Source of the DNA: Vitis vinifera
Lineage: Eukaryota; Streptophyta; Magnoliopsida; Vitales; Vitaceae
Reading direction: 5' to 3'
DNA length: 64,000 bases
NCBI RefSeq assembly: GCF_030704535.1
Contig: NC_081813.1
Span: 1,768,501-1,832,500 of the forward strand
Under the pieces are notes generated by a model. It was not told the DNA's origin, did not search any database, and saw only the letters and a program-made list of their open reading frames with translations. The stretch's first letter is position 1. Every line of letters starts with the position of its first letter. The position numbers and the translations under genes were made by a program. Positions 5,252-56,260 of this stretch are shown in pieces.

Positions 5252-5533
5252 CAAAAAGGGTCTTATAAACTCATTATGAAAAGGTTATGTCAATTGTCAA
5301 GTGTTGTCATTACTAGGTGGGTAAAGGTAACTTTCTTTCTTTACTTCGTAGTGGGTAAAGGTTGCTATCCGCCATTACCTCCCTATTTCTTGGTTGCTGG
5401 TGCTTTGAACAACAGACGACTTCAAGCTGCATGAGAAACTCTCTCATTTTGCCCTCATCTCCTCCAATAAATAGAGGAGGGAGAGTAACCTCAATATTCC
5501 ACCCAACTACAATTTAGAAATTAAAGAAGAAAA
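5252..5533 (+). promoter_or_regulatory. upstream region of CZIB-like copy 1
   Basis: This is the longest upstream form in the array: two 'gtgggtaaagg' phrases (about 5318 and 5352), one 'cttggttgctggtgctttgaac' box (about 5390), then the core region. Where other copies have TATAAATA, this copy reads AATAAATA (5466-5473), about 65 bp before the ATG. The same string of boxes occurs before the orphan exon at 29.7 kb and, inverted, at 29860-30080. Promoter assignment is inferred from position and conservation among copies. Confidence 0.55.
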
Positions 5534-6872
5534 ATGTTGAGGGTTGTGCTTCTTGCATCAGCTCATTTGCATAACGTTGCCCTTCTCCAGCCCGAGGGTG
5601 GGAGCGATGATGAAGAAATGAACTATTTCTTTAGGGTAAACATTCAATATTGTTCATCATTTGTTGTTTGCTTTAACATTGATGGTGTTTCTCCTACCTT
5701 GCAGCTGAAATGTCAACAATGTGGATGGATTTCTGAGAATGAAGTATGTGTTAACATGTCCGTTCAAGAACATGCCCCCTGGAGCAGCAGGAGAAACAAC
5801 CGTGTGAACTTATCTCTGAAGGTGGGTAGTATTAGCGTCATCCTCGATTATTTCTGCTCTCTCTCATTGCTTTGTTTTTGTTTATTTCTTGGTTTGGCAG
5901 TGTGAAGGGTGCGAGAGGCAGGGAACAATAACACTAGTCCCCAACATGGACGCCCGTTGAGGGTAGATGATTGTACAAATGTGCCACTGATGGTTTTTGA
6001 TTGCAACGGAACCTTCCCGGTGTACTACTCCTTCAACGGCGGATGGTCGACCGTTACGGTAATGATATATTAATAATCATTTTATACTTCATTGGGAGAA
6101 TTATCTTTTGGGGGTAGATGGGTTACCAAATTAACAAAAGGTCCATATAACTCTTTAAATTGAGTTGAAGGATATGAAATAGTAATGGACAAATATACCC
6201 TTTAAGAACACATATAAAATATTTTATAAAATTAAGTTAAATAATATTTTTTTTCAATAATTTTTTTTCAAAAATACTAAATTAAATAAAAGTAGTTTTC
6301 AAAAATATTAAATTAATTTTTTTTCAACAATATTAAATTAAATTAAAGTATTTAAAAAAATATTAAATTTAATATTTTTTTAAATATTAAATTAAATAAA
6401 TTTATTTTAAAAAAATATTAAATTAAATAAAAGTATTTTAAAAAATATTAAATTACATAAAAGTATTTTTTAAAAATATTAAATTAAATAAAAGTATTTT
6501 TCAAAAATATTAATTTTTTTTCTCAAAATCAACAAAGGGTATTTTTGGAAATACTGAATGATGATATCCTTCAACTCAATTTCCATACTTTTATTGGGTC
6601 TTAGGCTCAATTTAAAGAGTTACATGGACCTTTTATTAATTTGGGGGCCCATCTACCCCCAAAACATAATTCTCCTTACTTCATTATTCATTTGAGCTCA
6701 GTTTTTTTGACTTCTTTTTTTTTTTCTTCAGGAATCTGGCAGAAGTATTAACCTCAATCTTGTTGAGGGAAAATACAATGCTGTCGTTGATGGGGAGTAC
6801 ATTAAAATCAAGCAGCTGAAAACCAAGTTTGAACCCTATAACGGGCGACATTATGCTTGGTTTTTTGTTTAG
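5534..6872 (+). pseudogene. CZIB-like (DUF866) array copy 1, frameshifted
   Basis: Four exons by homology with copy 9: 5534-5635, 5705-5821, 5901-6058 and 6732-6872, with GT-AG borders. The family is a small cytosolic-type zinc-binding protein with two CXXC motifs; its molecular role in plants is unknown. Exon 2 carries CQQC and exon 3 CEGC. Exon 3 is 158 bp instead of 159: one base is missing in the 'ccccaacatgg' stretch, which shifts the frame and soon gives a stop. Intron 3 is enlarged by a 583-bp MITE. In exon 4, GGG-CGA replaces GGG-TGA, so the frame would run eight more residues to TAG. The core promoter TATA is also degenerate. Probably a pseudogene; a sequencing error at the single base cannot be excluded. 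Confidence 0.8.
6094..6676. mobile_element. Mutator-type MITE in intron 3 of copy 1
   Basis: A 583-bp insertion absent from all other copies. It is bounded by a perfect 9-bp direct repeat TACTTCATT (6085-6093 and 6677-6685). Its ends are inverted repeats of about 70 bp: the left end begins GGGAGAATTATCTTTTGGGG and the right end is its near-complement. The interior is a run of variants of 'aaaatattaaattaaataaaag'. There is no coding capacity. The 9-bp duplication with long TIRs fits a non-autonomous MULE. Because it is private to copy 1, it inserted after copy 1 separated from the others. Confidence 0.85.
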
Positions 6873-7169
6873 GCGTTTCCGTTGGTTCAGGTTGTTTTTG
6901 TTTCTCCTTTTATGTTTTTCTTTCTGTTTACTTCCCATTCCGGCTCCATTTGTAATCCCTTCAGCATCATCAATATCAAAGTTTGGTTTCTTACAACAGT
7001 TTTTACATAATCAGTATGAAACGTTTGGTTTGGGTGTAGCAGAAGCTCAAGACTCCAATGCAAGAGAGCTACAGTGGACTGTAAAATAAAAACCAAAACG
7101 GTAACCCACTAAAAAAATATAAATTTAATTTTAAATGTTTAAAAAAATAAAAATAATGATAACTAATAT

Positions 7170-7250
7170 AATCACCAATCACCCTCATCTGTTGTGTGGG
7201 CAAACCAACAATATATAGATATTTTATTCTTGGTATTCCGATGTGGGATC
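7170..7250 (-). promoter_or_regulatory. snRNA-type USE + TATA motif pair, repeated between array units
   Basis: On the minus strand ATCCCACATCG (7249-7239) matches the plant snRNA upstream sequence element RTCCCACATCG. About 21 nt further on lies a TATATA box (7217-7211). The pair recurs in six more spacers, with the USE at 8702-8712, 10161-10171, 14343-14353 (one base different), 17254-17264, 18722-18732 and 20142-20152. A T-rich run that could end Pol III transcription follows within about 100 nt. In known plant U6 genes the USE-TATA gap is a little longer. The same 11-mer is also common in plant repeats, so function is unproven. Confidence 0.35.
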
Positions 7251-7592
7251 AACCAAAGAGAGAATAAAATACAACATTGGTATTCAATCGCATAACCTTA
7301 AGTTAAACTGTCATGATACCACTATTATGTTATTTATTTCTTATGGAAACATTTCGATGTTAGCTAAAAAAAACTCCCCCCAACATAGCCATTACTCCCT
7401 GTTTCTTGGCTGTTGGTGCTTTGAACAGTCGATGTGGACATCCCCTATTTCTTGGTTGCTGGTGCTTTGAACAGCAGACGACTTCAAGCTGCATGAGAAA
7501 CTCTCTCATATTTCCCTCCTCTCCTATAAATAGAGGAGGGAGAGTAACCTCAATATTCCACCCAACTACAATTCAAAAATTAAAGAAGAAAA

Positions 7593-8313
7593 ATGCCGAG
7601 GGTTGTGCTTCTTGCATCAGCTCATTTGCATAACGTTGCCTTTCTCCAGCCCGAGGGTGGGAGGGATGATGAAGAAATGAACTATTTCTTTAGGGTAAAC
7701 ATTCAATATTGTTCATCATTTGTTGTTTGCTTTAACATTGATGGTGTTTCTCCTACCTTGCAGCTGAAATGTGAACAATGTGGATGGATTTCTGAGAATG
7801 AAGTATGTGTTAACATGGCCGTTCAAGAACATGCCCCCGGGAGCAGCAGGAGAAACAGCCGTGTGAACTTATCTCTAAAGGTGGGTAGTATAAGCGTCAT
7901 CCTCGATTATTTCTGCTATCTCTCGTTGCTCTGTTTTTGTTTATTTCTTAGTTTGGTAGTGTGAAGGGTGCGAGAGGCAGGGGACAATAACACTAGTCCT
8001 CGGAAATGGACGCCCGTTGAGGGTAGATGATTGTACAAATGTGCCACTTATGGTTTTTGATTGCAACGGAACCTTCCCGGTGTACTACTCCTTCAACGGC
8101 GGATGGTCGGCCGTTACGGTAACGATATATTAATAATCATTTTATACTTCATTATTCATTTGAACTCAGTTTTTTTGACTTTTTTTTTTTCTTCAAGAAT
8201 CTGGCAGAAGTAATAACCTCAATCTTGCTGAGGGAAAATACAATGCTATCGTTGATGGGGAGTACATTGAAATCAAGGAGCTGAAAACCAAGTTTGAACC
8301 CTATAACGGGTGA
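7593..8313 (+). pseudogene. CZIB-like (DUF866) array copy 2, exon-4 acceptor lost
   Basis: Exons by homology: 7593-7694, 7764-7880, 7960-8118 and 8197-8313. Exons 1-3 are open and in phase, with CEQC and CEGC both kept, and exon 3 uses a TAG acceptor. At exon 4 the acceptor reads CAA instead of CAG. The next AG is one base downstream and would shift the frame, giving a short unrelated tail. The ancestral exon-4 frame is open and ends at GGG-TGA. The TATAAATA core box is at 7525-7532, 68 bp before the ATG. One substitution separates it from a whole gene, so it may still make a three-zinc-ligand-exon transcript with an altered C-terminus. Confidence 0.75.
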
Positions 8314-9055
8314 CAGTATGCTTGGTTGTTTGTTTAGGCGTTTCCGTTGGTTCAGGTTGTTTTTGTTTCTCCTTTTATGTTTTTCTTTCCGTTTACTTCC
8401 CATTTCGGCTCCATTTGTAATCCCTTCAGCATCATCAATATCAAAGTTTGGTCTCTTACAACAGTTTTTACATAATCAGTATGAAACGTTTGGTTTGGGT
8501 GTAGCAGAAGCTCAAGACTCCAATGCAAGAGAGCTACAGTGGACTGTAAAATAAAAACAAAAACGGTAACCCACTAAAAAAATATAAATTTAATTTTAAA
8601 TGTTTTTTTAAAAAAATAATGATAACTAATATAATCACCAATCACCCTCATCTGTTGTGTGGGCAAACCAACAATATATAGATATTTTATTCCTAGTATT
8701 CCGATGTGGGATCAACCAAAGAGAGAATAAAATACAACATGGGTATTCAATCCCATAACCTTAAGTTAAACTATCATGATACCACTATTATGTTATTTAT
8801 TTCTTATGGAAACATTTCCATGTTAGCTAAAAAAAACTCCCCCCAACATAGCCATTACTCCCTGTTTCTTGGTTGCTGGTGCTTTGAACAGCAGATGTGG
8901 ACATCCCCTGTTTCTTGGTTGCTGGTGCTTTGAACAAGAGACGACTTCAAGCTGCATGAGAAACTCTCTCATTTTGACCTCCTTTCCTATAAATAGAGGA
9001 GGGAGAGTAACCTCAATATTCCACCAAACTACAATTCAAAAATTAAAGAAGAAAA

Positions 9056-9802
9056 ATGTCGAGGGTTGTGCTTCTTGCATCAGCTCATTTGCAGAACGTT
9101 GCCCTCCTCCAGCCCGAGGGTGGGAGCGATGATGAAGAAATGAACTATTTCTTTAGGGTAAACATTCAATAGTGTTCATCATTTGTTGTTTTCTTTAACA
9201 TTGATGGTGTTTCTCCTACCTTGCAGCTGAAATGTGAACAATGTGGATGGATTTCTAAGAATGAAGTATGTGTTAACTTGGCCGTTCAAGAACATGCCCC
9301 CGGGAGCAGCAGGAGAAACAACCGTGTGAACTTATCTCTGAAGGTGGGTAGTATAAGCGTCATCCTCGATTATTTCTGCTCTCTCTCATTGCTCTGTTTT
9401 TGTTTATTTCTTGGTTTGGCAGGTTGAAGGGTGCGAGAGACAGGGGACAATAACACTAGTCCCCGGACATGCACGCCCGTTGAGGGTAGATGATTGTACA
9501 ACTGTGCCACTGATGGTTTTTTATTGCAACGGAACCTTCCCGGTGTACTACTCCTTCAATGGCAGATGGTCGGCCGTTACGGTAATGATATATTAATAAT
9601 CATTTTATACTTCATTATTCATTTGAGCTCAGTGTTTTTGACTTCTTTTTTTTTTCTTCAAGAATCTGGCAGAAGTATTAACCTCAATCTTGTTGAGGGA
9701 AAATACAATGCTGTCGTTGATGGGGAGTACATTGAAATCAAGGAGCTGAAAACCAAGTTTGAACCCTATAACGGGCGACATTATGCTTGGTTTTTTGTTT
9801 AG
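9056..9802 (+). pseudogene. CZIB-like (DUF866) array copy 3, zinc ligand and acceptor lost
   Basis: Exons by homology: 9056-9157, 9227-9343, 9423-9581 and 9662-9802. The first CXXC (CEQC) is intact. In exon 3 the first cysteine codon TGT has become GTT, giving VEGC, so one of the four expected zinc ligands is missing. The exon-4 acceptor is CAA, as in copy 2, and exon 4 carries the GGG-CGA variant with stop at 9800-9802. TATAAATA lies at 8988-8995. The combination makes a working zinc protein unlikely. Confidence 0.75.
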
Positions 9803-10513
9803 GCGTTTCCGTTGGTTCCGGTTGTTTTTTTTTCTCCTTTTATGTTTTTATTTCTGTTTACTTCCCATTTCGGCTCCATTTGTAATCCCTTCAGCATCAT
9901 CAATATCAAAGTTTGGTTTCTTACAACAGTTTTTACATAATCAGTATGAAACGTTTGGTTTGGGTGTAGCAGAAGCTCAAGACTCCAATGCAAGAGAGCT
10001 ATAGTGGACTGTAAAATAAAAACCAAAACGGTAACCCACTAAAAAAATATAAATTTAATTTTAAATGTTTAAAAAAAATGATAACTAATATAATCACGAA
10101 TCACCCTCATCTGTTGTGTGGGCAAACCAACAATATACAGTTATTTTATTCCTGGTATTCCGATGTGGGATCAACCAAAGAGAGAATAAAATACAACATG
10201 GGTATTCAATCCCATAACCTTAAGATAAACTGTCATGATACCACTATTATGTTATTTATTTCTTATGGAAACATTTCCATGTTAGCTAAAAAAACTCCCT
10301 CCAACATAGCCATTACTCCCTGTTTCTTGGTTGCTGGTGCTTTGAACAGCAGATATGGACATCCCCTGTTTCTTGGTTGCTGGTGCTTTGAACAGCAGAC
10401 GACTTCAAGCTGCATGAGAAACTCTCTCATATTTCCCTCCTCTCCTATAAATAGAGGAGGGAGAGTAACCTCAATATTCCACCCAACTACAATTCAAAAA
10501 TTAAAGAAGAAAA

Positions 10514-11236
10514 ATGTCGAGGGTTGTGCTTCTTTCATCGGCTCATTTGCATAACGTTGCCCTTCTCCAGCCCGAGGGTGGGAGTGATGATGAAGAAATG
10601 AACTATTTCTTTAGGGTAAACATTCAATATTGTTCATCATTTGTTGTTTGCTTTAACATTGATGGTGTTTCTCTTACCTTGCAGTTGAAATGTGAACAAT
10701 GTGGATGGATTTCTTAGAATGAAGAATGTGTTAACATGGCCGTTCAAGAACGTGCCCCCGGGAGCAGCAGGAGAAACAGCCGTGTGAACTTATCTCGTAA
10801 AGTGGGTAGTATAAGCGTCATCCTCGATTATTTCTTCTCTCTCTCATTGCTCTGTTTTTGTTTATTTCTTGGTTTGGCAGTGTGAAGGGTGCGAGAGGCA
10901 GGGGACAATAACACTAGTCCCCGGACATGGACGCCCGTTGAGGGTAGATGATTGTACAAATGTGCCACTGATGGTTTTTGATTGCAACGGAACCTTCCCG
11001 GTGTACTACTCCTTCAACGGCGGATGGTAGGCCGTGACGGTAATGATATATTAATAATCATTTTATACTGCATTATTCATTTGAGCTCAGTTTTTCTGAC
11101 TTCTTTTTTTTTTCTTCATGAATCTGGCAGAAGTATTAACCTCAATCTTTTTGAGGGAAAATACAATGTTGTCGTTGATGGGGAGTACATTGAAATCAAG
11201 GAGCTGAAAACCAAGTTTGAACCTTATAACGGGTGA
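10514..11236 (+). pseudogene. CZIB-like (DUF866) array copy 4, several stops
   Basis: Exons by homology: 10514-10615, 10685-10801, 10881-11039 and 11120-11236. Exon 1 is open. Exon 2 has a TAG shortly after the CEQCGWIS motif, exon 3 has TGG-TAG near its end, and the exon-4 acceptor reads CAT. Downstream, a 36-bp stretch of the 3' region present in most copies is missing; copy 5 shares this and the exon 3/4 lesions, so copies 4 and 5 are sisters. TATAAATA is at 10446-10453. A clear pseudogene. Confidence 0.85.
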
Positions 11237-11474
11237 CATTATGCTTGGTTTTTTGTTTAGGCGTTTCCGTTGGTTCAGGTTGTTTTTGTTTCTCCTTTTA
11301 TGTTTTTCTTTCTGTTTACTTCCCATTTCGGCTCCATTTGTAATCCCTTCAGCATCATTAATATCAAAGTTTGGTTTGGGTGTAGCAGAAGCTCAAGACT
11401 CCAATGCAAGAGAGCTACAGTGGACTATAAAATAAAAACCAAAACGGTAACCCACTAAAAAAATATAAATTTAG

Positions 11475-11979
11475 TGGGTGTGCGAGTTTCGCACAACATT
11501 CGCACACCATTCGCACAGCTAAGGGGGTGTGCGAATTTCGCACACCATTCGCACACCATTCGCACACCTGGAGCAGTTGTCTTCCGAAGGACATATCTTC
11601 CTCGTTTCAGTTTCAAATCATACACGGTTTAAAGCGTTGGATTCTTGACTTCCTGAGCTTTGAAATGGTATATAGCATGTAAAAAATGGACTTCAGGAAG
11701 TGCTCCAAAAGTGCCAAAGAAGACTGCAGCTGCTGTCCTCTATTTTCCTCCTTGCTTCTTTTTGCTTCTCTTTGGTTTTCTTTGCTTTTCTCCTTTGGAT
11801 GGCTTGTCTTAATGATCTAAAAAGATGTCAAAAACACTAAAACTAGCCACAAATATGATTAGGAGTCATTGCTAGGTCCTTAACATGCCAATTGGAATAA
11901 AGATGAAGAATTACTACACAAAAGTGCTTAAAACATAATGACTTAAAGGTGTAAAATAGCACTTTTTGGGTAGTAATCA
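11475..11979 (+). mobile_element. 3' LTR fragment heading copy 5
   Basis: About 505 bp that match the right third of the solo LTR at 14815-16293, ending at the same 'gtagtaatca' and followed by the same ATATT. At its left it joins directly to the 3' flank of copy 4 ('aaatttag'), with no promoter or exon 1 between. It begins inside the short 'ttcgcacaccattcgcacac' tandem tract. It is a fragment, spread by duplication of the array rather than by a new insertion. Confidence 0.75.
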
Positions 11980-12037
11980 ATATTGTTCATCATTTGTTGT
12001 TTGCTTTAACATTGATGGTGTTTCTCCTACCTTGCAG

Positions 12038-12589
12038 CTGAAATGTGAACAATGTGGATGGATTTCTGAGAATGAAGAATGTGTTAACATGGCCGTTCAA
12101 GAACGTGCCCCCGGGAGCAGCAGGAGAAACAGCCGTGTGAACTTATCTCGTAAAGTGGGTAGTATAAGCGTCATCCTCGATTATTTTTGCTCTCTCTCAT
12201 TGCTCTGTTTTTGTTTATTTCTTGGTTTGGCAGTGTGAAGGGTGCGAGAGGCAGGGGACAATAACACTAGTCCCCGGACATGGACGCCCGTTGAGGGTAG
12301 ATGATTGTACAAATGTGCCACTGATGGTTTTTGATTGCAACGGAACCTTCCCGGTGTACTACTCCTTCAACGGCGGATGGTAGGCCGTGACGGTAATGAT
12401 ATATTAATAATCATTTTATACTGCATTATTCATTTGAGCTCAGTTTTTCTGACTTCCTTTTTTTTTCTTCATGAATCTGGAAGAAGTATTAACCTCAATC
12501 TTTTTGAGGGAAAATACAATGTTGTCGTTGATGGGGAGTACATTGAAATCAAGGAGCTGAAAACCAAGTTTGAACCTTATAACGGGTGA
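12038..12589 (+). pseudogene. CZIB-like (DUF866) array copy 5, no exon 1
   Basis: Only exons 2-4 are present: 12038-12154, 12234-12392 and 12473-12589. The promoter and exon 1 are replaced by the LTR fragment at 11475-11979. CEQC and CEGC are kept, but exon 3 has the TGG-TAG stop and exon 4 the CAT acceptor, as in copy 4, and the same 36-bp downstream deletion. It is a recent chimeric duplicate of the 3' part of copy 4. Confidence 0.8.
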
Positions 12590-12829
12590 CATTATGCTTG
12601 GTTTTTTGTTTAGGCGTTTCCGTTGGTTCAGGTTGTTTTTGTTTCTCCTTTTATGTTTTTCTTTCTGTTTACTTCCCATTTCGGCTCCATTTGTAATCCC
12701 TTCAGCATCATCAATATCAAAGTTTGGTTTGGGTGTAGTAGAAGCTCAAGACTCCAATGCAAGAGAGCTACAGTGGACTGTAAAATAAAAACCAAAACGG
12801 TAACCCACTAAAAAAATATAAATTTAGTG

Positions 12830-13343
12830 GGTGTGCGAGTTTCGCACAACATTCGCACACCATTCGCACAGCTAAGGGGGTGTGCGAATTTCGCACACCA
12901 TTCGCACACCATTCGCACACCATTCGCACACCTGGAGCAGTTGTCTTCCGAAGGCCATATCTTCCTCGTTTCAGTTCCAAATCGTACATGGTTTAAAGTG
13001 TTGGATTCTTGACTTCCTGAGCTTTGAAATGGTATATAGCATGTAAAAAATGGACTTCGGGAAGTGCTCCAAAAGTGCCAAAGAAGACTGCAGCTGCTGT
13101 CCTCTATTTTCCTCCTTGCTTCTCTTTGCTTCTCTTTGGTTTTCTTTGCTTTTCTCCTTTGGATGGCTTGTCTTAATGATCTAAAAATATGTCAAAAACA
13201 CTAAAACTAGCCACAAATATGATTAGGAGTCATTGCTAGGTCCTTAACATGCCAATTGGAATAAAGATGAAGAATTACTACACAAAAGTGCTTAAAACAT
13301 AATTACTTAAAGGTGTAAAATAGCACTTTTTGGGTAGTAATCA
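12830..13343 (+). mobile_element. 3' LTR fragment heading copy 6
   Basis: This is nearly the same fragment as at 11475-11979, with the same left junction to a 3' gene flank and the same right end before ATATT. It has one extra 'cattcgcacac' repeat step. The identical junction shows that one chimeric joining event was followed by tandem duplication. It contains no coding domain. Confidence 0.75.
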
Positions 13344-13401
13344 ATATTGTTCATCATTTGTTGTTTGCTTTAACATTGATGGTGTTTCTCCTACCTTGCA
13401 G

Positions 13402-14193
13402 CTGAAATGTGAACAATGTGGATGGATTTCTGAGAATGAAGAATGTGTTAACATGGCCGTTCAAGAACGTGCCCCCGGGAGCAGCAGGAGAAACAGCCGT
13501 GTGAACTTATCTCTGAAGGTGGGTAGTATAAGCGTCATCCTCGATTATTTTTGCTCTCTCTCATTGCTCTGTTTTTGTTTATTTCTTGGTTTGGCAGTGT
13601 GAAGGGTGCGAGAGGCAGGGGACAATAACACTAGTCCCCGGACATACACGCCCGTTGAGGGTAGATGATTGTACAAATGTGCCACTGATGGTTTTTTATT
13701 GCAACGGAACCTTCCCGGTGCACTACTCCTCCAACGGCGGATGGTCGGCCGTTACGGTAATGATATATTAATAATCATTTTATACTGCATTATTCATTTG
13801 AGCTCAGTTTTTTTAACTTCTTTTTTTTTTCTTCAGGAATTTGGCGAAAGTATTAACCTCAATCCTGTTGAGAGAAAATACAATGTTGTCGTTGATGGGG
13901 AGTACATTGAAATCAAGGAGCTGAAAACCAAGTTTGAACCGTATAACGGGCGACATTATGCTTGGTTTTTTGTTATGCGTTTTCGTTGGTCCAGGTTGTT
14001 TTTGTTTCTCCTTTTATGTTTTTCTTTCTGTTTACTTCCCATTTCGGCTCCATTTGTAATCCCTTCAACATCATCAATATCAAAGTTTGGTTTCTTACAA
14101 CAGTTTTTACATAATCAGTATGAAACGTTTGGTTTGGGTGTAGCAGAAGCTCAAGACTCCAATGCAAGAGAGCTACAATGGACTATAAAATAA
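13402..14193 (+). pseudogene. CZIB-like (DUF866) array copy 6, no exon 1, extended C-terminus
   Basis: Exons 2-4: 13402-13518, 13598-13756 and 13837-14193, all open with good GT-AG borders, CEQC and CEGC. The promoter and exon 1 are absent; an LTR fragment lies upstream. The usual stops after PYNG are both lost (GGG-CGA, then TAG altered to read through), so exon 4 continues about 80 residues into former 3' UTR. The extension contains a Leu/Phe/Cys-rich hydrophobic stretch and ends LQWTIK. It could be expressed only if a start were supplied from the LTR side, so I class it as 5'-truncated. Confidence 0.7.
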
Positions 14194-14696
14194 AAACCAA
14201 AACGGTAACCCACTAAAAAAATATAAATTTAATTTTAAATGTTTTAAAAAATAAAAATAATGATAAATAATATAATCACCAATCACCCTCATCTGTTGTG
14301 TGGGCAAACCAACAATATATAGATATTTTATTCCTGGTATTTCGATGTGGGATCAACCAAAGAAAGAATAAAATACAACATGGGTATTCAATCCCATAAC
14401 CTTAAGTTAAACTGTCATGATACCACTATTATGTTATTTATTTCTTATGGAAACATTTCCATGTTAGCTAAAAAAAACTCCCCCCAACATAGCCATTACT
14501 CCCTGTTTCTTGGTTGCTGGTGCTTTGAACAGCAGATGTGGACATCCCCTGTTTCTTGATTGCTGGTGCTTTGAACAGCAGACGACTTCAAGCTGCATGA
14601 GAAACTCTCTCATTTTGCCCTCCTCTCCTATAAATAGAGGAGGGAGAGTAACCTCAATACTCCACCCAACTACAATTCAAAAATTAAAGAAGAAAA

Positions 14697-17105
14697 ATGT
14701 CAAGGGTTGTGCTTCTTTCATCAGCTCATTTGCATAACGTTGCCCTTCTCCAGCCCGAGGGTGGGAGCGATGATGAAGAAATGAACTATTTTTTTAAGGT
14801 AAACATTCAATATTTGATTCGCGTATGTAAATCGAGTCGTATCATTTAATCAAAAACATTTATAAAACCTATGACCTCATACTAGTGTAGCAAAGCTACT
14901 ATAGTATAGTGGCTCTAGGGTCGAACTCTGGGATGGGTTTTCATTCTACCAGTGATATACTCATGATTAGGAATTGAATTTAATGATTTCCTTTATCAAA
15001 AACTTAGAGTTTAAAAGAAAATAAAATTTGTTTTGAAAGTGTTTGAAACTAAATTAACATAAGCTAATTAAAAATGGAAAAAAGAAAGTCTCCCGGAGCT
15101 CAGGATTGCTAGGATCAAGTTTAGAATGCAAAGTGGAAAATTCCGGATTTTTCTCCTCGCATTGGGGATTTAACCTATAGTTATTTCCCGAACTGGTATA
15201 GGTTTAACAATGAAGATTTAATCCATAAAAATCAATAGAAATGGTAGTCAAGGTCCATTAATGGCTTTAGACACTATGGGTCTTCACCTTGAACCACTTT
15301 CCAATGGCTCGTACATGATAACTAATGGACTGATATGGATCTAGCAATAAGCATCCACAGAGACCTGAAGCTTACCATGTATTGGCCATTCAAAGTGATT
15401 CTAAGGGATTTAAAGCAAAACTTTGGATTTAAAAGCTATTTATGAACTTCAACTACCTGTATTTAAGGCACGAGCGTTTTCCACCTTCCATCTGGACTTT
15501 TCACCTAGCTTCCATCACTCCAAGAAACCAAAAGTTTAGCCTCTCATCCTCTGAGAAAACATCCTCAGAGGTTGTTTGGCTTCCAAGAAAAAGAAAATAG
15601 TAAAGAGAAAAGGGAAAACGAGAGAGTTCTGTATATTTTTCTAAGTGCAAAACATAACACGCGTCTTTTTTCCAAGAGGTGATTTCCACCCCTTATATAG
15701 TTTTTACAAAAGCAAAGCTTGTGATTGGCTTGTTACAAGGAGAAGAAAGGAAATTACATCAAAAAATACAAAAGAAAATATCTAAAGTGGAGTCGGCAAA
15801 AACAGAGGAAAATTCGCACCACGCATGGGGTGTACGAGTTTCGCACGCCATTCGCACACCATTCGCACACCATTCGCACACCTGGAGTAGTTGTCTTCCG
15901 AAGGCCATATCTTCCTCGTTTCAGCTCCAAATCGTACACGGTTTAAAGCGTTGGATTCTTGACTTCCTGAGCTTTGAAATGGTATATAGCATGTAAAAAA
16001 TGGACTTCGGGAAGTGCTCCAAAAGTGCCAAAGAAGACTGCAGCTGCTGTCCTCTATTTTTCTCCTTGCTTCTCTTTGCTTCTCTTTGGTTTTCTTTGCT
16101 TTTCTCCTTTGGATGGCTTGTCTTAATGATCTAAAAAGATGTCAAAAACACTAAAACTAGCTACAAATATGATTAGGAGTCATTGCTAGGTCCTTAACAT
16201 GCCAATTGGAATAAAGATGAAGAATTACTACACAAAAGTGCTTAAAACATAATGACTTAAAGGTGTAAAATAGCACTTTTTGGGTAGTAATCAATATTGT
16301 TCATCATTTGTTGTTTGCTTTAACATTGATGGTGTTTCTCCTACCTTGCAGCTGAAATGTGCACAATGTGGATGGATTTCTGAGAATGAAGAATGTGTTA
16401 ACATGGCCGTTCAAGAACGTGCCCCCGGGAGCAGCAGGAGAAACAGCCGTGTGAACTTATCTCTGAAGGTGGGTAGTATAAGCGTCATCCTCGATTATTT
16501 CTGCTCTCTCTCATTGATCTGTTTTTTTTTTTATTTCTTGGTTTGGCAGTGTGAAGGGTGCGAGAGGCAGGGGACAATAACACTAGTCCCCGGACATGCA
16601 CGCCCGTTGAGGGTAGATGATTGTACAAATGTGCCACTGATGGTTTTTTATTGCAACAGAACCTTCCCGGTGCACTACTCCTCCAACGGCGGATGGTCGG
16701 CCGTTACGGTAATGATATATTAATAATCATTTTACACTTCATTATTCATTTGAGCTCAGTTTTTTTGACTTTTTTTTTTTTCTTCAGGAATTTGGCGAAA
16801 GTATTAACGTCAATCCTGTTGAGGGAAAATACAATGTTGTCGTTGATGGGGAGTACATTGAAATCAAGGAGCTGAAAACCAAGTTTGAACCGTATAACGG
16901 GTTCAGGTTGTTTTTGTTTCTCCTTTTATGTTTTTCTTTCTGTTTACTTCCCATTTCGGCTCCATTTGTAATCCCTTCAGCATCATCAATATCAAAGTTT
17001 GGTTTCTTACAACAGTTTTTACATAATCAGTATGAAACGTTTGGTTTGGGTGTAGCAGAAGCTCAAGACTCCAATGCAAGAGAGCTACAGTGGACTGTAA
17101 AATAA
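14697..17105 (+). CDS. CZIB-like (DUF866) array copy 7, open, LTR in intron 1, extended C-terminus
   Basis: Exons 14697-14798, 16352-16468, 16550-16708 and 16788-17105, all in phase with canonical borders; predicted 231 aa. It carries both zinc motifs, CAQC in exon 2 and CEGC in exon 3. Intron 1 is 1,553 bp because it holds a 1,479-bp solo LTR. About 40 bp around the normal stop are deleted, joining PYNG directly to 'FRLFLFLLL', so 67 residues of former 3' UTR are read, including a hydrophobic segment that could act as a membrane or signal-anchor-like stretch. TATAAATA at 14629-14636. Whether intron 1 is still spliced and the tailed protein is stable is unknown. Confidence 0.55.
14815..16293 (+). 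mobile_element. solo LTR (probably Ty3/gypsy, Tat/Ogre-like) in intron 1 of copy 7
   Basis: A 1,479-bp insertion beginning TGATT and ending AATCA, flanked by the 5-bp direct repeat ATATT (14810-14814 and 16294-16298). It interrupts 'caatattgttcatc' of intron 1. No coding domain, primer-binding site or second LTR is present, so it is best read as a single LTR left by recombination. The opening 'cgtatg..atcgagtcgtat' and a 'gtcgaactctggga' phrase resemble Tat/Ogre LTRs, from memory. Near 15840-15885 it has a short tandem 'ccattcgcaca' tract. It is older than the tandem duplications that copied its right end to copies 5 and 6. Confidence 0.75.
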
Positions 17106-17607
17106 AAACCAAAACGGTAACCCACTAAAAAAATATAAATTTAATTTTAAATATTAAAAAAATAAAAATAATGATAACTAATATAATCACCAATCACCCT
17201 CATCTGTTGTGTGGGCAAACCAACAATATATAGATATTTTATTCCTGGTATTCCGATGTGGGATCAACCAAAGAAAGAATAAAATACAACATGGGTATTC
17301 AATCCCATAACCTTAAGTTAAACTGTCATGATACCACTATTATGTTATTTATTTCTTATGGAAACATTTCCATGTTAGCTAAAAAAAACTCCCCCCAACA
17401 TAGCCATTACTCCCTGTTTCTTGGTTGCTGGTGCTTTGAACAGCAGATGTGGACATCCCCTGTTTCTTGATTGCTGGTGCTTTGAACAGCAGACGACTTC
17501 AAGCTGCATGAGAAACTCTCTCATTTTGCCCTCATCTCCTATAAATAGAGGAGGGAGAGTAACCTCAATATTCCACCCAACTACAATTCAAAAATTAAAG
17601 AAGAAAA

Positions 17608-18330
17608 ATGTCGAGGGTTGTGCTTCTTTCATCAGCTCATTTGCATATCGTTACCCTTCTCCAGCCCGAGGTTAGGAGCGATGATGAAGAAATGAACTAT
17701 TTCTTTAGGGTAAATATTCAATATTGTTCATCATTTGTTGTTTGCTTTAACATTGATGGTGTTTCTCCTACCTTGCACCTGAAATGTGAACAATGTGGAT
17801 GGATTTCTGAGAATGAAGTATGTGTTAACATGCCCGTTCAAGAACATGCCCTCGGGAGCAGCAGGAGAAACAGCCGTGTGAACTTATCTCGTAAGTTGGG
17901 TAGTATAAGCGTCATCCTCGATTATTTCTGCTCTCTCTCATTGCTCTGTTTTTGTTTATTTCTTGGTTTAGTAGTATGAAGGGTGCGAGAGGCAGGGGAC
18001 AATAACACTAGTCCCCGGACATGGACGCCCGTTGAGGGTAGATGATTGTTCAAATGTGCCACTGATGGGTTTTGATTGCAACGGAACCTTCCCGGTGTAC
18101 TACTCCTTCAACGGCGGATGGTAGGCCGTGACGGTAATGATATATTAATAATCATTTTATACTGCATTATTCATTTGAGCTCAGTTTTTCTGACTTCCTT
18201 TTTTTTTCTTCAAGAATCTGGCAGAAGTATTAACCTCAATCTTTTTGAGGGAAAATACAATGTTGTCGTTGATGGGGAGTACATTGAAATCAAGGAGCTG
18301 AAAACCATGTTTGAACCCTATAACGGGTGA
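17608..18330 (+). pseudogene. CZIB-like (DUF866) array copy 8, broken splice sites and stop
   Basis: Exons by homology: 17608-17709, 17779-17895, 17975-18133 and 18214-18330. The exon-2 acceptor reads CAC, the exon-2 donor is altered (AAG-TT), exon 3 starts TAT so the second motif is YEGC, exon 3 has the TGG-TAG stop also seen in copies 4 and 5, and the exon-4 acceptor is CAA. Exon 1 shares the IVTLLQPEVR variant with copy 9, which shows that the two are close sisters at the 5' end. TATAAATA is at 17540-17547. A clear pseudogene. Confidence 0.85.
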
Positions 18331-18875
18331 CATTATGCTTGGTTTTTTTGTTTAGGCGTTTCCGTTGGTTCAGGTTGTTTTTGTTTCTCCTTTTATGTTT
18401 TTCTTTCTGTTTACTTCCCATTTCGGCTCCATTTGTAATCCCTTCAGCATCATCAATATCAAAGTTTGGTTTCTTACAACAGTTTTTACATAATCAGTAT
18501 GAAACATTTGGTTTGGGTGTAGCAGAAGCTCAAGACTCCAATGTAAGAGAGCTACAGTGGACTGTAAAATAAAAACCAAAACGGTAACCCACTAAAAAAA
18601 TATAAATTTAATTTTAAATGTTTAAAAAAATAAAAATAATGATAACTAATATAATCACCAATCACCCTCATCTGTTGTGTGGGCAAACCAACAATATATA
18701 GATATTTTATTCCTGGTATTCCGATGTGGGATCAACCAAAGAGAGAATAAAATACAACATGGGTATTCAATCCCATAACCTTAAGTTAAACTGTCATGAT
18801 ACCACTATTATGTTATTTATTTCTTATGGAAACATTTCCATGTTAGCTAAAAAAACTCCCCCCAACATAGCCATT

Positions 18876-19028
18876 ACTCCCTGTTTCTTGGTTGCTGGTG
18901 CTTTGAACAGCAGATGACTTCAAGCTGCATGAGAAACTCTCTCATTTTGCCCTCCTCTCCTATAAATAGAGGAGGGAGAGTAACCTCAATATTCCACCCA
19001 ACTACAATTCAAAAATTAAAGAAGAAAA
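18876..19028 (+). promoter_or_regulatory. core promoter of CZIB-like copy 9
   Basis: TATAAATA at 18961-18968 lies 68 bp before the ATG and is followed by 'gaggagggagagtaacctc', conserved in every complete copy. Upstream is one 'cttggttgctggtgctttgaac' box (18886-18907); most other copies have two such boxes in tandem. 'gaagaaaaATG' gives an A at -3. Transcription start is inferred about 30 bp after TATA. Confidence 0.6.
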
Positions 19029-19751
19029 ATGTCGAGGGTTGTGCTTCTTTCATCAGCTCATTTGCATATCGTTACCCTTCTCCAGCCCGAGGTTAGGAGC
19101 GATGATGAAGAAATGAACTATTTCTTTAGGGTAAATATTCAATATTGTTCATCATTTGTTGTTTGCTTTAACATTGATGGTATTTCTCCTACCTTGCAGT
19201 TGAAATGTGAACAATGTGGATGGATTTCTGAGAATGAAGTATGTGTTAACATGGCCGTTCAAGAACGTGCCCCCGGGAGCAGCAGTAGAAACAACCGTGT
19301 CAACTTATCTCTAAAGGTGGGTAGTATAAGCGTCATCCTCGATTATTTCTGCTCTCTCTCATTGCTCTGTTTTTGTTTATTTCTTGGTTTGGCAGTGTGA
19401 AGGGTGCGAGAGGCAGGGGACAATAACACTAGTCCCCGAACATGGACGCCCGTTGAGGGCAGATGATTGTACAAATGTGCCACTGATGGTTTTTGATTGC
19501 AACGGAATCTTCCCGGTGTACTACTCCCTCAACGGCGGATGGTCGGCCGTTACGGTAATGATATATTAATAATCATTTTATACTTCATTATTCATTTGAG
19601 CTTAGTTTTTCTGACTTCCTTTTTTTTTCTTCAGGAATCTGGCAGAAGTATTAACCTCAATCTTGTTGAGGGAAAATACAATGCTGTCGTTAATGGGGAG
19701 TACATTGAAATCAAGGAGCTAAAAACCAAGTTTGAACCCTATAACGGGTGA
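19029..19751 (+). CDS. CZIB-like zinc-binding protein (DUF866/UPF0587), array copy 9, intact
   Basis: Exons 19029-19130, 19200-19316, 19396-19554 and 19635-19751; all introns are GT-AG and phase 0; 164 aa with TGA right after PYNG. This is the only array copy with every exon, splice site and the normal stop intact. Family features in order: N-terminal strand and LLQP motif (residues about 17-20), MNYFF before intron 1, CEQCGW (about 37-42), CEGC opening exon 3 (residue 74 on), the VPLMVFDC strand, the FNGGW-type turn (here LNGGW), and a C-terminal KELKTKF strand. The length matches the usual 160 aa. In animals the two CXXC pairs bind one zinc ion; the plant role is not established. The minus-strand paralog at 54.6 kb has the same four-exon plan. 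Start chosen by homology and TATA spacing. Confidence 0.8.
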
Positions 19752-20276
19752 CAGTATGCTTGGTTTTTTGTTTAGGCGTTTCCGTTGGTTCAGGTTGTTT
19801 TTGTTTCTCCTTTTATGTTTTTCTTTCTGTTTACTTCCCATTTCGGCTCCATTTGTAATCCCTTCAGCATCATCAATATCAAAGTTTGGTTTCTTACAAC
19901 AGATTTTACATAATCAGTATGAAACGTTTGGTTTGGGTATAGCAGAAGTTCAAGACTCCAATGCAAGAGAGCTACAGTGGACTATAAAATAAAAACCAAA
20001 ACGGTAACCCACTAAAAAAATATAAATTTAATTTTAAATGTTTTAAAAAATAAAAATAATGATAACTAATATAATCACCAATCACCCTCATCTGTTGTGT
20101 GGGCAAACCAACAATATATAAATATTTTATTCCTGGTATTCCGATGTGGGATCAACCAAAGAGAGAATAAAATACAACATGGGTATTCAATCCCATAACC
20201 TTAAGTTAAACTGTCATGATACTACTATTATTTTATTTTTTTCTTATGCAAACATTTCCATGTTAGCTAAAAAAAA

Positions 20277-20370
20277 CTCCTCCCAAAATTTTTATAATAA
20301 TAAAAATGCAAATAATTTAAAGTAAAATAATATAATTTTTTTTAAACTTATAAAATAATAAGATATATAA

Positions 20371-22514: not shown

Positions 22515-24290
22515 ATTCCACTTCTGTGAAACGACACCGTTTCGAATGTGCCAAACGGTTATTTTTTAAACTTCCGTTACCTCCCTCCTCTGAACCACCA
22601 CCTCCGTCACCCGTCGTCATCCATGACCTCTCAATTCAAACCCGTCGCATTTCATAGCTTATCCACCTCAATTCAATCGATTATACTCGTTTCATCCTTG
22701 ATCAAACCCCTTCTCCCACTGATTTCTCTTGGAACTCCTTTATTAGAGCCGGCACCCTCCAAGGCTCTCCACAAAATTCCCTGGCTCTCTATCTCTGAAT
22801 GATTCGGAACAGCGCTAAACCGAGTAATGTTACATACCCTTTTGTCCTAAAATCTTGTTCCACCCTTAGTTCGGTGCTTGAAGGTGAACACATTCATACC
22901 CATGTTCTAAGATTGGGTTTTGGATCTGATTTGTTTGTGTGATTCTTTAATAGAGATGTGTTGTAAGTGTTTTTGTCTTGATTCTTCTCGGAATTTGCGG
23001 GTTGGTATGGAGGTTAGAGATGAGGTTTCTTGGAATTCGATCATTTCAGGGTATGTGCACTGAGGGGAGGTTGAGGAGCGCGGGAGTTGTTTGAAGAAAT
23101 GCCAATGAGAAGGAATGTGGTTTGCCGGACTGCAATGATAAATGTGTATGGGAAAGATAGGGATTTTGTGGAGATGTTGAGTTTTTTTTCCGAATGGTTG
23201 TTTCGGCTGATGAGGTCCAACTCAATGCGGCAACAATGGTGTGTCTACTGTCTGCCTACTCTCTGTAATTATGGAGTTGGAAGGTTCCTTTTGGTTTTTA
23301 TCGATGTTAATAAGATCCCTTTGAATGCAATCTTGGTTACTGCTCTCATAGACATGTATTCTAAGTGCGGGGATGTGGAGAATGCTTGGAGAATCTTTGG
23401 TGGTGTTTCTTGTAAGAAGCTGCCTCCTTGGAATGGATATGTGCAGCGTGGACTTTTTGAGGAAGCAATTGATTTATACTATCTCACAAAAGCAGTCTAT
23501 GAAATGTAATGAAATCACACTGGTGAATGTGTTGTCTGCTTGTGCTGGCTTAGGGGCACTGTAACTTGGGAGAGAAGTTCATCTGTACCTGGGTCTAAAC
23601 AGCTTAGAGCTAAATGTGATTCTTGTACTGTTGTGGTTGATATGTAAGCAAAACCTGGTTTAAATCGATGTTGCTTGTTTGGTTTTTGTCAAGACAAGTG
23701 AGAAAAATGTAGCCTTGAGGAATGCCATGATACTGGTACTGGCTTACCATGGTGATGGAAGTGACTCTTTCTTTAGTGGTTTTTTAACAGATGGAGAGGA
23801 CTGGTGTGCAGCCCAATGATGTCACATTTATTGGAGTTTTATCAGCTTGTAACCACTCAGGATTAGTAGAAGAATGAATGGTTCAATTTTCTAGTATGGC
23901 CGATAAACATGGATTGTCTCCTAAACTTGAGCATTTTGCTTGTATGGTAGATCTCCTTGGCCAGGCTAGGCATGTCAAAGAAGCATATGAATTGGCCCAT
24001 AACACGATAATTCCACCTTATTCGATAATCTGGGGTACTTTACTAAGTGCTGGCTGCATCCATCGGAATCTTGAACCGGCTAATACAATCAGTGGAACAG
24101 TAACGGCATTGCAGGATCCCAAATCTGGGTTTATGCATTCTGTTGTTGAGCATTTATGCTTCTGCAGGAAGGTGGAAGGATGAGGAGACAGGTAAAAGGG
24201 AAAAGGATCAAAAGGCCTTTTGGTTGTAGTTGGGTTGAAGTTGATGGTGCTGTTCACAGATTTGTAATTGAAGATACAACTCATATGAAA
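22515..24290 (+). pseudogene. PLS-class PPR protein pseudogene, plus copy
   Basis: Translations in shifting frames give typical plant PPR phrases: RRNVVCRTAMINVYGK (near 23100), DMYSKCGDVENAWRIF (near 23350), NVLSACAGLGAL (near 23530), QPNDVTFIGVLSACNHSG (near 23810), GLSPKLEHFACMVDLLG (near 23910) and an E-type end, SIIWGTLLSAGC (near 24025) and GCSWVEVDGAVHRFV (near 24225). At least four frame changes and several stops interrupt it. Such proteins normally bind organelle RNA. Compared with the minus copy at 51.2-53.2 kb it keeps more of the region after the first repeat. Not functional as it stands. Confidence 0.8.
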
Positions 24291-29273: not shown

Positions 29274-29393
29274 CTTCAGATAGTGAATTTTACGAAATGT
29301 TAGCATCTGGCTTATAACATCAGAATTCAAGCATGAATTGATCTCCAGTTAATTTTCATTCATTCTTCCAGTGAAATACCTTAGTGCTATTAC

Positions 29394-29725
29394 TAGGTGG
29401 GTAAAGGTAACTTTCTTTCTTTACTTCTTGGTGGGTAAAGGTTGTTGTCCATCATTACCTCCCCTGTTTTTTTATTGCTGGTGCTTTGAACAGCAGATGT
29501 GGACATCCCCTGTTTCTTGGTTGCTGGTGCTTTAAACAACAGATGATATGACTTCAAGCTGTATGAGAAACTCTCTCATTTTGCCTCCCTCTCCTCCTAT
29601 AAATAGAGGAGGGAGAGTAACCTCAATATTCCACCCAATTTTGCCCCCCTCTCTTCCTATAAATAGAGGAGGGAGAGTAACCTCAATATTCCACCCAACT
29701 ACAGTTCAGAAAATAAAGAAAAAAA
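29394..29725 (+). promoter_or_regulatory. CZIB-like upstream region with duplicated core promoter
   Basis: Contains the 'ctaggtgggtaaaggtaac' start, two 'gctggtgcttt' boxes and then two successive 62-bp core units, each with TATAAATA (29598-29605 and 29658-29665), purine-rich 'gaggagggagagtaacctc' and 'aatattccaccca'. This tandem duplication of the core is unique among the copies. It leads into the orphan exon 1. Confidence 0.65.
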
Positions 29726-29827
29726 ATGCCGAGAGTTGTGCTTCTTGCATCAGCTCATTTGCATAACGTTGCCCTTCTCCAGCCCGAGGGTGGGAGCGAT
29801 GATGAAGAAATGAACTATTTCTTTAGG
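29726..29827 (+). pseudogene. orphan exon 1 of a CZIB-like (DUF866) gene
   Basis: Open 34-codon exon with the array consensus (MPRVVLLASAHLHNVALLQP..MNYFFR) and a GT donor. After a few bases of intron the sequence stops resembling the array: exons 2-4 are absent and an inverted piece of the upstream region follows. It lies 9.7 kb past the end of the array, so it was moved as a promoter plus exon-1 fragment. Confidence 0.85.
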
Positions 29828-29859
29828 GTAAACGATTTCTTTCTTTTCTGAATTGCAGT

Positions 29860-30080
29860 TGAGTGAAATAGAGGAGAGAAGGGCAAAATGAGAGACTACT
29901 ACATACAGCTTGAAGTCCTCTCATCTGCTGTTCAAAACACCAACAACCAAGAAACAGAGAAAATAATGATAGACAACAATTTTTACCCACCAAGAAGTAA
30001 TGACAGAAAATTACCTTTACCCACCTAACTGAAGTAATGACAGCACTGTGACAATTGACATAGCCTGGTTTCTATATCTC
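29860..30080 (-). repeat. inverted piece of CZIB-like upstream region
   Basis: Read on the minus strand it runs 'ttgtcaattgtcacagtgctgtcattac', 'gtgggtaaaggtaatttt', 'tcttggttgttggtgttttgaac', 'ttcaagctgtatg' and 'ctctcattttgcccttctctcc', which is the order of 5285-5470. With the plus piece at 29394 it forms an imperfect inverted repeat around the orphan exon. A further small piece occurs at 30090-30125. Confidence 0.7.
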
Positions 30081-34495: not shown

Positions 34496-34589
34496 TTCAT
34501 CGTCAACCAAGAATCAGGGTAGACAATAACGTTTACCCATCAAGAAATAATGACAGAAAATTACCTTTATCCACCTAGCTGCAAGGATT

Positions 34590-41214: not shown

Positions 41215-41705
41215 ATTAAAATTTATTTGAAAATTTAAAATATTATAATTATTTATTAATATTTAAAAATATTGTCATTCTTTTTTTAAAAAAAATATTC
41301 ATAATAATTTTAATAATCAAGTATAATCTTTGTTTTGTATTAAAAGCTAATAATCGTGTTTTAAGACTGTTATTAAAATTTCATAATAGATTTTTAAAGG
41401 TAGAATGCTTTTATTTTAATTATTTTTAAATCAAATATTTTCTCTAAAATCGTTATTAAAAAAATCACCGATCTAATTTTTCAACTGTGAAAATATTTTC
41501 TAAATTTTTCTAAATACTGATTTTTTTTTTTTTTCCAAAAGCATTTGTTTATACTAAAACTATTTTTCAAAAACAAAAAAATTGAAGCACACACTTAAGG
41601 ATGTCACTGAGCAAGAATAAGCATATCAATTACAAAGTCTAGCTTAGAAAAAAAAAACAACATAGAATTTTATACCCAGGAAACCCATAGAACAGAGACA
41701 GAAAA
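41215..41705. other. AT-rich junk between gene fragments
   Basis: Homopolymer-rich DNA. Phrases near 41500-41580 ('aaaagcatttgtttatactaaaac') recur at 43610 and 58650. No gene. Confidence 0.5.
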
Positions 41706-54566: not shown

Positions 54567-55409
54567 TCAACCCCAATATGGCACAAATTTGGCTTTTAGC
54601 TTTGAGATTGATACCTCCACTCCATCGATTACATCCGTGTATTCTCCCATAGTAAGATCAACATGAATTTCTCTGCCAGAAATCTGAAAAAAAATATAGA
54701 AAAACCAGCATTAGTGACTCAGCTCAAATTAAAAAAGATAAAAATGATCAAAATTATGTTGATAGAAGTGTACCGTTGTAGCCAACCATCCACCGTTGAA
54801 TGAATACTCCACAGGGAGTAATCCGTCGCAATGAAATAACATCAAATCCACCTCTGTGCAGTGATTTTGGCTTAATGGAGTCCCATGTCCAGGGATTAAC
54901 GAGATCTCGCCATGTCTTTCACATCCTTGACACTGCAAAACCAAGAAAAACCAAGAATAAAATGAGAGAAAAAAAGAAAAAAAGAAAATAGTAGCAATAG
55001 CCAAACCAACAAAAGAAAACAATGGCAGAGAAAAAAAAACAGGCATATTTTGAAGTTAAAATTGAAAAAGGAAGTAATCATAAAAAACAAACAATATGAG
55101 AGAGAGGAACTAATATACCCACCTTTCTGGACAAATTCAAATTATCATTTCTTCGATTTCCAGTGGGTTTTTCTTTGATACTTATAGAAACACAGGCATT
55201 GTTATGAGAAATCCACCCACAATATTCACACTTCAGCTGCAATAAAACAGAGACCAAAACGTTAAAATACGTAACAATGTTAAATCCAAACAACATTGAA
55301 AATTCACCTTGAAAAAGTAGTTGATGGTCTCATCGTCACTACCATCCTGAGGTTGGAGAATGACAATATTCTTCAACTCAGCAGATACAACGAGCATGAG
55401 TTTTGGCAT
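54567..55409 (-). CDS. CZIB-like zinc-binding protein (DUF866/UPF0587), intact diverged paralog
   Basis: Exons (5' to 3'): 55409-55308, 55236-55123, 54932-54774 and 54683-54567; GT-AG, phase 0; 163 aa. It begins MPKLMLVVSAELKNIVILQP, closer to the usual plant family start than the array copies. CEYCGW in exon 2 and CQGC in exon 3 provide the four zinc ligands, followed by DLMLFHCDGLLPVEYSFNGG and a C-terminal KLKAKFVPYWG ending in TGA. Exon sizes equal those of the array genes except exon 2 (one codon shorter), so the exon plan predates their split. Intact frame, splice sites and promoter suggest a working gene. An upstream in-frame ATG (55454) is unlikely, since homologs start at MPK. Confidence 0.85.
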
Positions 55410-55483
55410 TTTTCCTTTTTCTTCTCTTAATTTTTTCTTCTTTTCTGAATACAACGAGCATGGTGAGATTATTACTCCTTTGC

Positions 55484-55495
55484 TCTATTTAAAAG
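55484..55495 (-). promoter_or_regulatory. TATA-like box of the minus-strand CZIB-like gene
   Basis: TTTAAATAG on the minus strand, about 77 bp before the ATG, followed by 'gagcaaaggagtaataatctc'. The same core, as TATAAATAGAGC, occurs in the mirrored copy at 56110-56121, supporting a core promoter. Confidence 0.6.
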
Positions 55496-55724
55496 AAGAG
55501 GAGGACGAAATGAAAACCATGCCTACCTGCATGTTCAAAGACTAGTGCAAGAAAATGACCAAATGACAAAACTAATAAAACAAAAATATAGCAGCACAAG
55601 CAAAAACAGAAAACAGGACCAAGAAGAGGAAAGACTGCAGAAGTAATGAGAGAAAATCACTGTTACCCACCCCAGCAGAAGTAACGAGGAAAACAACTTT
55701 TACCCACCTAGTGTTTTCGCTTAT

Positions 55725-55860
55725 CGGCCGGCTGCGACACGATATTCGTCACCGGTCGGCAAAAATTTTGATAATTTTTCGGAAATATCATCATATTTCA
55801 GTATTTATCGGTATTTTTACCGATTTTTCTGATATTTCCTTACCAGTCCAGCCCACAGTG
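55725..55860 (-). repeat. fragment of dispersed repeat R1
   Basis: 'gcttatcggccggctgcgacac' through 'tttccttaccagtccagccc' matches 34622-34770. It lies in the centre of the inverted promoter pair, next to 'tttacccacctagtg' upstream phrases. Confidence 0.65.
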
Positions 55861-55864
55861 GGTA

Positions 55865-56260
55865 AAAGTTGTTGAGTCTCATTTACTTTTGCTGGGTGGG
55901 TAAAAGTCGTTTTCCTCATTACTTCTGATGGGGTGGGTAACAATGGTTTTCTTTCATTACTTCTGTAGTCTTTCCTCTTCTTGGTCCTGTTTTCTGTTTT
56001 TACTTGTACTACTATATTTTTCTTTTATTAGCTTTGTCATTTGGTCATTTTCTTGCACTAGTCTTTGAACATGCAGGTAGACATGGTTTTCATTTCGTCC
56101 TCCTCTCCTTATAAATAGAGCAGAGGAGTAATAATCTTACCATTTGTCTCCAATGTGATTCAGAAAAAAAATAATTTTAAGTTATGCTCGTTGTATCAGA
56201 GGAATATTGCCCTTCTCCAATGACGGTTTGATAATGATGATGCCACGATGTTATAAATGC
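55865..56260 (+). pseudogene. mirrored promoter and broken exon 1 of the CZIB-like gene
   Basis: Read on the plus strand, 55970-56130 is the near-complement of 55480-55650 ('cttgcactagtctttgaacatgca', 'cttataaatagagcagagg'). Then ATGCTCGTTGTATC (56184 on) and 'aatattgcccttctccaa' repeat exon 1 of the minus gene with deletions and a lost frame. No further exons follow. The two promoters thus stand head-to-head about 0.6 kb apart, with repeat R1 between. Confidence 0.75.

Follow-up and report, generated by a model that had tools for sequence, protein, structure and literature searches.

Birth and death is a well-known mode of evolution of tandem plant gene clusters, in which head-to-tail copies, shared lesions, mosaics, transposon insertions and pseudogenes surround a few intact genes. 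The array of nine units described here shows the same features and is located in a stretch of 64,000 nucleotides of Vitis vinifera DNA (assembly GCF_030704535.1, contig NC_081813.1, positions 1,768,501 to 1,832,500), hereafter the window. The units are related to the zinc-binding proteins of family PF05907 (CXXC_Zn-b_euk; DUF866/CZIB), and it is in the family that the array differs from the clusters mentioned above, since PF05907 is normally near single copy. A preliminary description of this DNA held that the family usually has one or very few genes per genome, and the count of 861 sequences in 735 eukaryotes, given in the accessible part of PMC6166629, agrees with this, large families being rare. 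The array adds one more case to this known kind of tandem evolution, in a family unusual for it. In our reading, which we regard as very likely, a divergent PF05907 paralogue gave rise to a birth-and-death tandem array in which one intact gene is accompanied by eight broken or altered copies.

The closest described protein is human CZIB/C1ORF123, whose zinc ligands are C33, C36, C67 and C70 according to the accessible part of PMC6160046. The likeness extends over about 160 amino acid residues, with an end-to-end profile match and both CXXC pairs aligned. The differences are that the protein of unit 9, the last of the array, shows an identity of only 26% with the human fragment, and that the array consists mostly of broken tandem copies.

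Family Assignment

Proteins were compared with the PF05907 profile, for which the curated cut-off is 22.9 bits. The protein of unit 9 matched profile positions 2–155 of 155 with its residues 6–160 (91.1 bits, E = 8.9e-26), and that of a second intact gene of the window, located at 54.6 kb, gave 111.9 bits. The scan comprised five proteins, the remaining three being those of units 2, 7 and 1 (85.3, 74.7 and 59.7 bits, respectively). The DUF866 identity proposed in the preliminary description was thereby confirmed, and a chance resemblance was ruled out by the profile E-values. Since a 143-residue human piece reached 184 bits on the same profile, as compared with 91 and 112 bits, the unit 9 and 54.6-kb proteins are divergent members of the family. 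The nearest solved structures by sequence were those of human C1orf123 (5ZLQ and 5ZRT), with E of about 1e-9 for unit 9 and about 4e-8 for the 54.6-kb protein.

The CXXC cysteines of unit 9, C37–C40 and C74–C77, were aligned with C33/C36 and C67/C70 of the human protein, and the same was found for the 54.6-kb gene. If made, the unit 9 protein is predicted to be small and beta-rich, with one zinc held by the two CXXC pairs. When the array was read exon by exon, the first pair was present in all nine units and both pairs in seven, the first cysteine of the second pair being lost in unit 3 (C74V) and unit 8 (C74Y); the earlier statement that every unit shows the CXXC pair or its remains therefore holds.

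No plant CZIB array was found in the titles and abstract openings of the DUF866 or PF05907 literature, nor among the matches listed for wider searches with family names, UPF0587 and Vitis/tandem terms, which covered the literature in part and do not show absence from print. No literature was found under AT4G32930, which we take to be a gene name for the family.

Array Layout and State of the Units

Between 5629 and 19423, a repeat search detected a 300-nt core in nine direct, head-to-tail copies, 85–99% identical to the reference copies, a repetition far beyond chance. The array extends from about 5371, where homology to the other units starts, to about 20289, where the last unit stops; the sequence at 5282–5370 is common only to a separate fragment at 29.4–30.0 kb and not to the array units. 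The spacings of successive core copies were 2059, 1463, 1458, 1353, 1364, 2950, 1427 and 1421 bases, corresponding to a typical step of 1.35–1.46 kb and two longer steps (2,059 and 2,950 bases). The unit length of about 1.45 kb given in the preliminary description does not hold for units 1 and 7, which are longer by inserts in intron 3 and intron 1, respectively, nor for units 5 and 6, which lie 1.35–1.36 kb from their left neighbours. The unit bodies (exon 2 into the spacer) were 94.8–98.9% identical, the closest pairs being 4/5 (98.9%) and 6/7 (98.1%).

Mapping of the unit 2 exons over the whole window showed exons 2, 3 and 4 in all nine units, and exon 1 with the promoter in seven of them. 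Promoter, TATA box and exon 1 were all absent from units 5 and 6, so that of the common promoter and four-exon plan previously ascribed to nine units, the nine direct copies stand and the plan is limited to seven. A TATA-like box is found 69 bases 5′ of the ATG in these seven units; it reads exactly TATAAATAG in six, and is replaced by CAATAAATAG in unit 1.

Splice donors and acceptors were inferred from the GT-AG rule. A damaging or altering lesion, or the lack of exon 1, was found in eight of the nine units, and only unit 9 (19029–19751) retains, as read from the sequence, all splice sites, the frame and the stop. The coordinates of the units and of the other features of the window are collected in Table 1.

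In unit 1, exon 3 is short by one base (158 instead of 159), leading to an early stop after 92 amino acid residues; in addition, intron 3 carries an A+T-rich insert of about 0.6 kb and the stop codon is changed to Arg. The ends of this insert (6094–6690) appear by eye to be inverted (GGGAGAATTAT... / ...ATAATTCTCC), like those of a small DNA transposon. In unit 2 the intron 3 acceptor CAG is changed to CAA, and the next AG, one base on, would shift the frame of exon 4 to give a protein of 154 residues with an altered end. The same acceptor change is present in unit 3, together with the C74V replacement and a stop codon changed to Arg. Unit 4 has stops in exons 2 and 3 and has lost the usual intron 2 donor and the intron 3 acceptor; unit 5 shows the lesions of unit 4 in exons 2–4, except for the exon 2 stop. 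Exons 2–4 of unit 6 are open, with the stop codon changed to Arg. Every splice site is kept in unit 7. Its intron 1 is enlarged by an insert of 1,479 bp, a 40-base deletion across the stop extends the frame to about 231 residues, and its predicted product might still contain the whole domain. Besides C74Y, unit 8 shows loss of the intron 1 acceptor and of the usual intron 2 donor, a one-base shift of the intron 3 acceptor and a stop in exon 3. An extra base in exon 2 is common to units 4, 5 and 8. In these units a GTAAAG or GTAAGT has arisen five bases before the usual donor and is a candidate replacement for it, the use of which would shift the frame.

Table 1. Units of the PF05907 array and related features, in positions of the window.
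Feature	Position	Strand	Details
Unit 1	5371..7380	+	exons 5534-5635, 5705-5821, 5901-6058, 6732-6848
Unit 2	7381..8843	+	exons 7593-7694, 7764-7880, 7960-8118, 8197-8313
Unit 3	8844..10301	+	exons 9056-9157, 9227-9343, 9423-9581, 9662-9778
Unit 4	10302..11473	+	exons 10514-10615, 10685-10802, 10881-11039, 11120-11236
Unit 5	11474..12826	+	3′ piece of LTR-like element first (to 11979), then exons 2-4; no promoter/exon 1
Unit 6	12827..14484	+	3′ piece of LTR-like element first (to 13343), then exons 2-4; no promoter/exon 1
Unit 7	14485..17395	+	exons 14697-14798, 16352-16468, 16550-16708, 16788 on
Unit 8	17396..18862	+	exons 17608-17709, 17779-17896, 17975-18133, 18214-18330
Unit 9	18863..20289	+	TATA 18960; exons 19029-19130, 19200-19316, 19396-19554, 19635-19751; 164 aa; PF05907 91.1 bits
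Solo-LTR-like insert in unit 7 intron 1	14815..16293		TGATT...AATCA ends; 5-bp target-site repeat ATATT
Promoter and exon 1 fragment	29394..30027		exon 29726-29827; then its promoter and leader repeated in inverted orientation
Divergent intact PF05907 gene	54567..55409	-	exons 55409-55308, 55236-55123, 54932-54774, 54683-54567; 163 aa
Palindrome at the 54.6-kb gene promoter	55460..56143		arms 55460-55711 and 55892-56143; 252 nt, 93% complementary

Selection on the Copies

The pooled unique substitutions of the array comprised 59 nonsynonymous and 19 synonymous changes and 2 stops. The nonsynonymous share was 0.756, as compared with 0.732 expected under neutrality when the transition bias of the data is allowed for (p = 0.70; the stop codon is omitted from this test), and the variable sites at codon positions 1, 2 and 3 numbered 30, 28 and 19, respectively. 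Divergence amounted to 4.6–5.7% in the exons, within the span covered by the introns (3.2, 3.5 and 7.9%) and the 3′ sequence (4.6%), and to 3.45% in the promoter, the values for intron 1 being calculated without units 5, 6 and 7, those for intron 3 without unit 1, and those for the promoter and exon 1 without units 5 and 6.

The pairwise ratios of nonsynonymous to synonymous divergence (dN/dS, omega) within the array were based on few changes and scattered between 0 and 3.07; they exceeded 1 in 19 of the 36 pairs, each omega above 1 depending on 1 to 7 synonymous changes. In this comparison the columns absent from unit 9 were dropped, which masks the extra base of units 4, 5 and 8, codons with gaps or stops were skipped, and exon 1 was missing for units 5 and 6. 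Against the 54.6-kb gene, omega was 0.23–0.28 for all four units compared (9, 2, 3 and 7), at dS of 1.4–1.6. Within the array, the substitutions fit neutrality and no constraint is detectable; since omega against the 54.6-kb gene is 0.23–0.28, the constraint predates the array.

A functional tandem array would contain several intact, constrained copies, and what was found is one intact unit out of nine and no detectable constraint. That all nine units are functional genes is ruled out by their lesions together with the neutral pattern of substitution. The nine-gene expansion originally proposed is accordingly not supported, lesions or the lack of exon 1 being found in eight copies and no purifying selection being detectable within the array.

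Origin of the Array

The insert in intron 1 of unit 7 has the features of a solo long terminal repeat (LTR), namely TG...CA ends and ATATT on both sides, and the corresponding site is empty in unit 2. Its last 443 and 482 bp precede exon 2 of units 5 and 6, with 98.0 and 96.7% identity, respectively, and these pieces are the only other matches to the element in the window. The 45 bases across the junctions between the element and the preceding spacer are identical in units 5 and 6, which is most simply explained by a single deletion followed by tandem duplication. Exon 1 of unit 8 is identical to that of unit 9 in 102 of 102 positions; its exons 2–4 are nearest those of unit 5 (97.1%) and unit 4 (96.7%) and are 94.7% identical to those of unit 9 (unit 1 left out). 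Judged by these identities, unit 8 is a mosaic with a unit-9-like front and a unit-4/5-like middle, and we infer that it is the kind of product made by unequal crossing-over or gene conversion.

Taken with the anatomy of the units, these data suggest that a divergent PF05907 paralogue, once under selection, would have given rise to head-to-tail copies through recombination of repeats about 1.43 kb long, and that the copies would then have drifted and broken. Into intron 1 of one copy a TG...CA element was inserted, as indicated by the target-site repeat. A deletion may have fused the neighbouring spacer to the interior of the element, giving a copy devoid of promoter and exon 1, and a tandem duplication of this form would have produced units 5 and 6. 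Exchange among the copies, to which the mosaic structure of unit 8 points, probably spread the lesions. The remainder would be the apparently intact unit 9, plus the older divergent 54.6-kb gene.

Several observations weigh against this birth-and-death history. Introns 1 and 2 (3.2 and 3.5%) and the promoter diverge less than the exons, which does not fit an even, unconstrained mutation, and the omega values against the 54.6-kb gene rest on a near-saturated dS. With 80 changes to go on, the neutrality test would hardly detect weak selection acting on a single unit. The splice and frame calls were made from the sequence only; unit 7, having all splice sites and an open frame, could still yield a longer-tailed protein, and exons 1–3 are open in units 2 and 3. 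Finally, the 3′ stretch of unit 8 is nearest units 7 (99.1%) and 1 (98.8%) in a comparison with units 4 and 5 left out.

Other Copies of the Family and Neighbouring Sequences

The protein of the 54.6-kb gene is 52% identical to that of unit 9. Its promoter makes up one arm of the palindrome, and past the far arm (feature 55460–56300) a decayed leader- and exon-1-like stretch was recognized, with a score of 98, the highest score among 500 shuffles (single-letter, not dinucleotide) being 79.5. Judging from this stretch, the 54.6-kb gene probably had a head-to-head twin that has since been lost. In the fragment at 29394–30027 the TATA segment is doubled, and the inverted copies make the sequence a foldback whose loop holds exon 1. 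In this part of the genome, PF05907 thus appears to have duplicated by three routes: in tandem, head to head, and as a foldback exon 1.

This lone promoter and exon 1 fragment is adjoined by one copy of a 232-bp inverted pair (29161–29392 and 40985–41215, 96.6% identity). The sequence at 34512–35244 is related, in inverted orientation, to the one 5′ of unit 1 (83% over its main part). It includes a short segment of the GGTGGGTAAAGG promoter motif, and a portion of it shows a further match, to the centre of the 54.6-kb palindrome. The window further contains reading frames of a Copia-type retrotransposon (gag, gag-pre-integrase and integrase core; 31330–34125), an F-box/LRR reading frame of 420 amino acid residues (46520–47782) and two short pentatricopeptide-repeat reading frames (23087–23509 on the plus strand and 51708–52136 on the minus strand).

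Alternative Explanations

An adaptive expansion, in which more than one copy is expressed, to increase protein dosage or with new roles beginning to emerge, would agree with the retention of the TATA-like box in seven units, with a promoter less divergent than the exons and with the 19 pairwise omega values above 1. However, frame, splice, stop or exon losses affect eight of the nine units, the pooled ratio of nonsynonymous to synonymous changes fits neutrality, and the high omegas hang on the few synonymous changes noted above; such an expansion is therefore considered very improbable. Placement in tandem of alleles or erroneous copies during the assembly has also to be taken into account, since highly similar repeats are prone to misassembly, but the units differ by 2.4–5.2% with private indels and lesions, except for pairs 4/5 and 6/7, and the insertion in unit 7 is clean and has a target-site repeat. 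An artefact of this kind is extremely doubtful.

The broken units could also have a non-coding role, if they were transcribed and fed, together with the 29.4–30.0-kb foldback and the repeated promoter, small RNAs silencing the intact members. The promoters retained by broken units, the inverted promoter arms flanking an exon 1 and the many near-identical copies speak for such a role; it is nevertheless unlikely, since the inverted arms consist largely of promoter sequence and are probably untranscribed, and ordinary decay accounts for the observed features. The decay of a tandem array, leaving one intact gene, is thus preferred over all three.

Possible Function and Implications

Mdf1, a microsporidian ribosome-hibernation factor, was compared with PF05907 as pieces of the deposited chains rather than as whole chains. 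A 62-residue piece of E. cuniculi Mdf1 (7QEP chain MD) gave 30.1 bits and a 55-residue piece of the S. lophii protein (8P5D chain MD1) gave 31.7 bits, both above the cut-off, which places Mdf1 in the same family. The two chains were deposited as uncharacterised or DNL-type. The direct similarity to unit 9 was weak (E = 0.049 and 0.14, and 0.067 and 0.018 with a three-member profile), and with an E limit of 10 neither chain was among the matches listed for the 54.6-kb protein. Mdf1 and C1orf123 were not found named together in the literature searched. The Vairimorpha ribosome paper is said to have noted eukaryotic homologues.

By analogy with Mdf1, for which binding to the ribosomal E site in dormancy is characteristic, the intact PF05907 genes may encode ribosome-binding proteins, a reasonable hypothesis for the family and one far less sure than the history of the array; metal handling through CCS would be an alternative function, given in the accessible part of PMC6160046. 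A wider speculation, to which we would give only a small chance, is that the window is a hotspot of repeated birth and loss for a fast-evolving plant side-branch of CZIB/Mdf1, and that the members retained act as specialised factors of ribosome dormancy, under the control of silencing RNAs that the broken copies supply.

The profile link between DUF866 and Mdf1 provides a testable function, binding to the ribosomal E-site, for the plant members. What looked like an expansion to nine genes is corrected here to a single intact gene accompanied by decay, which matters for automatic annotation. For the family itself, the array shows that local amplification is possible even where a near-single copy number is the rule, and that in this case the additional copies were not kept.

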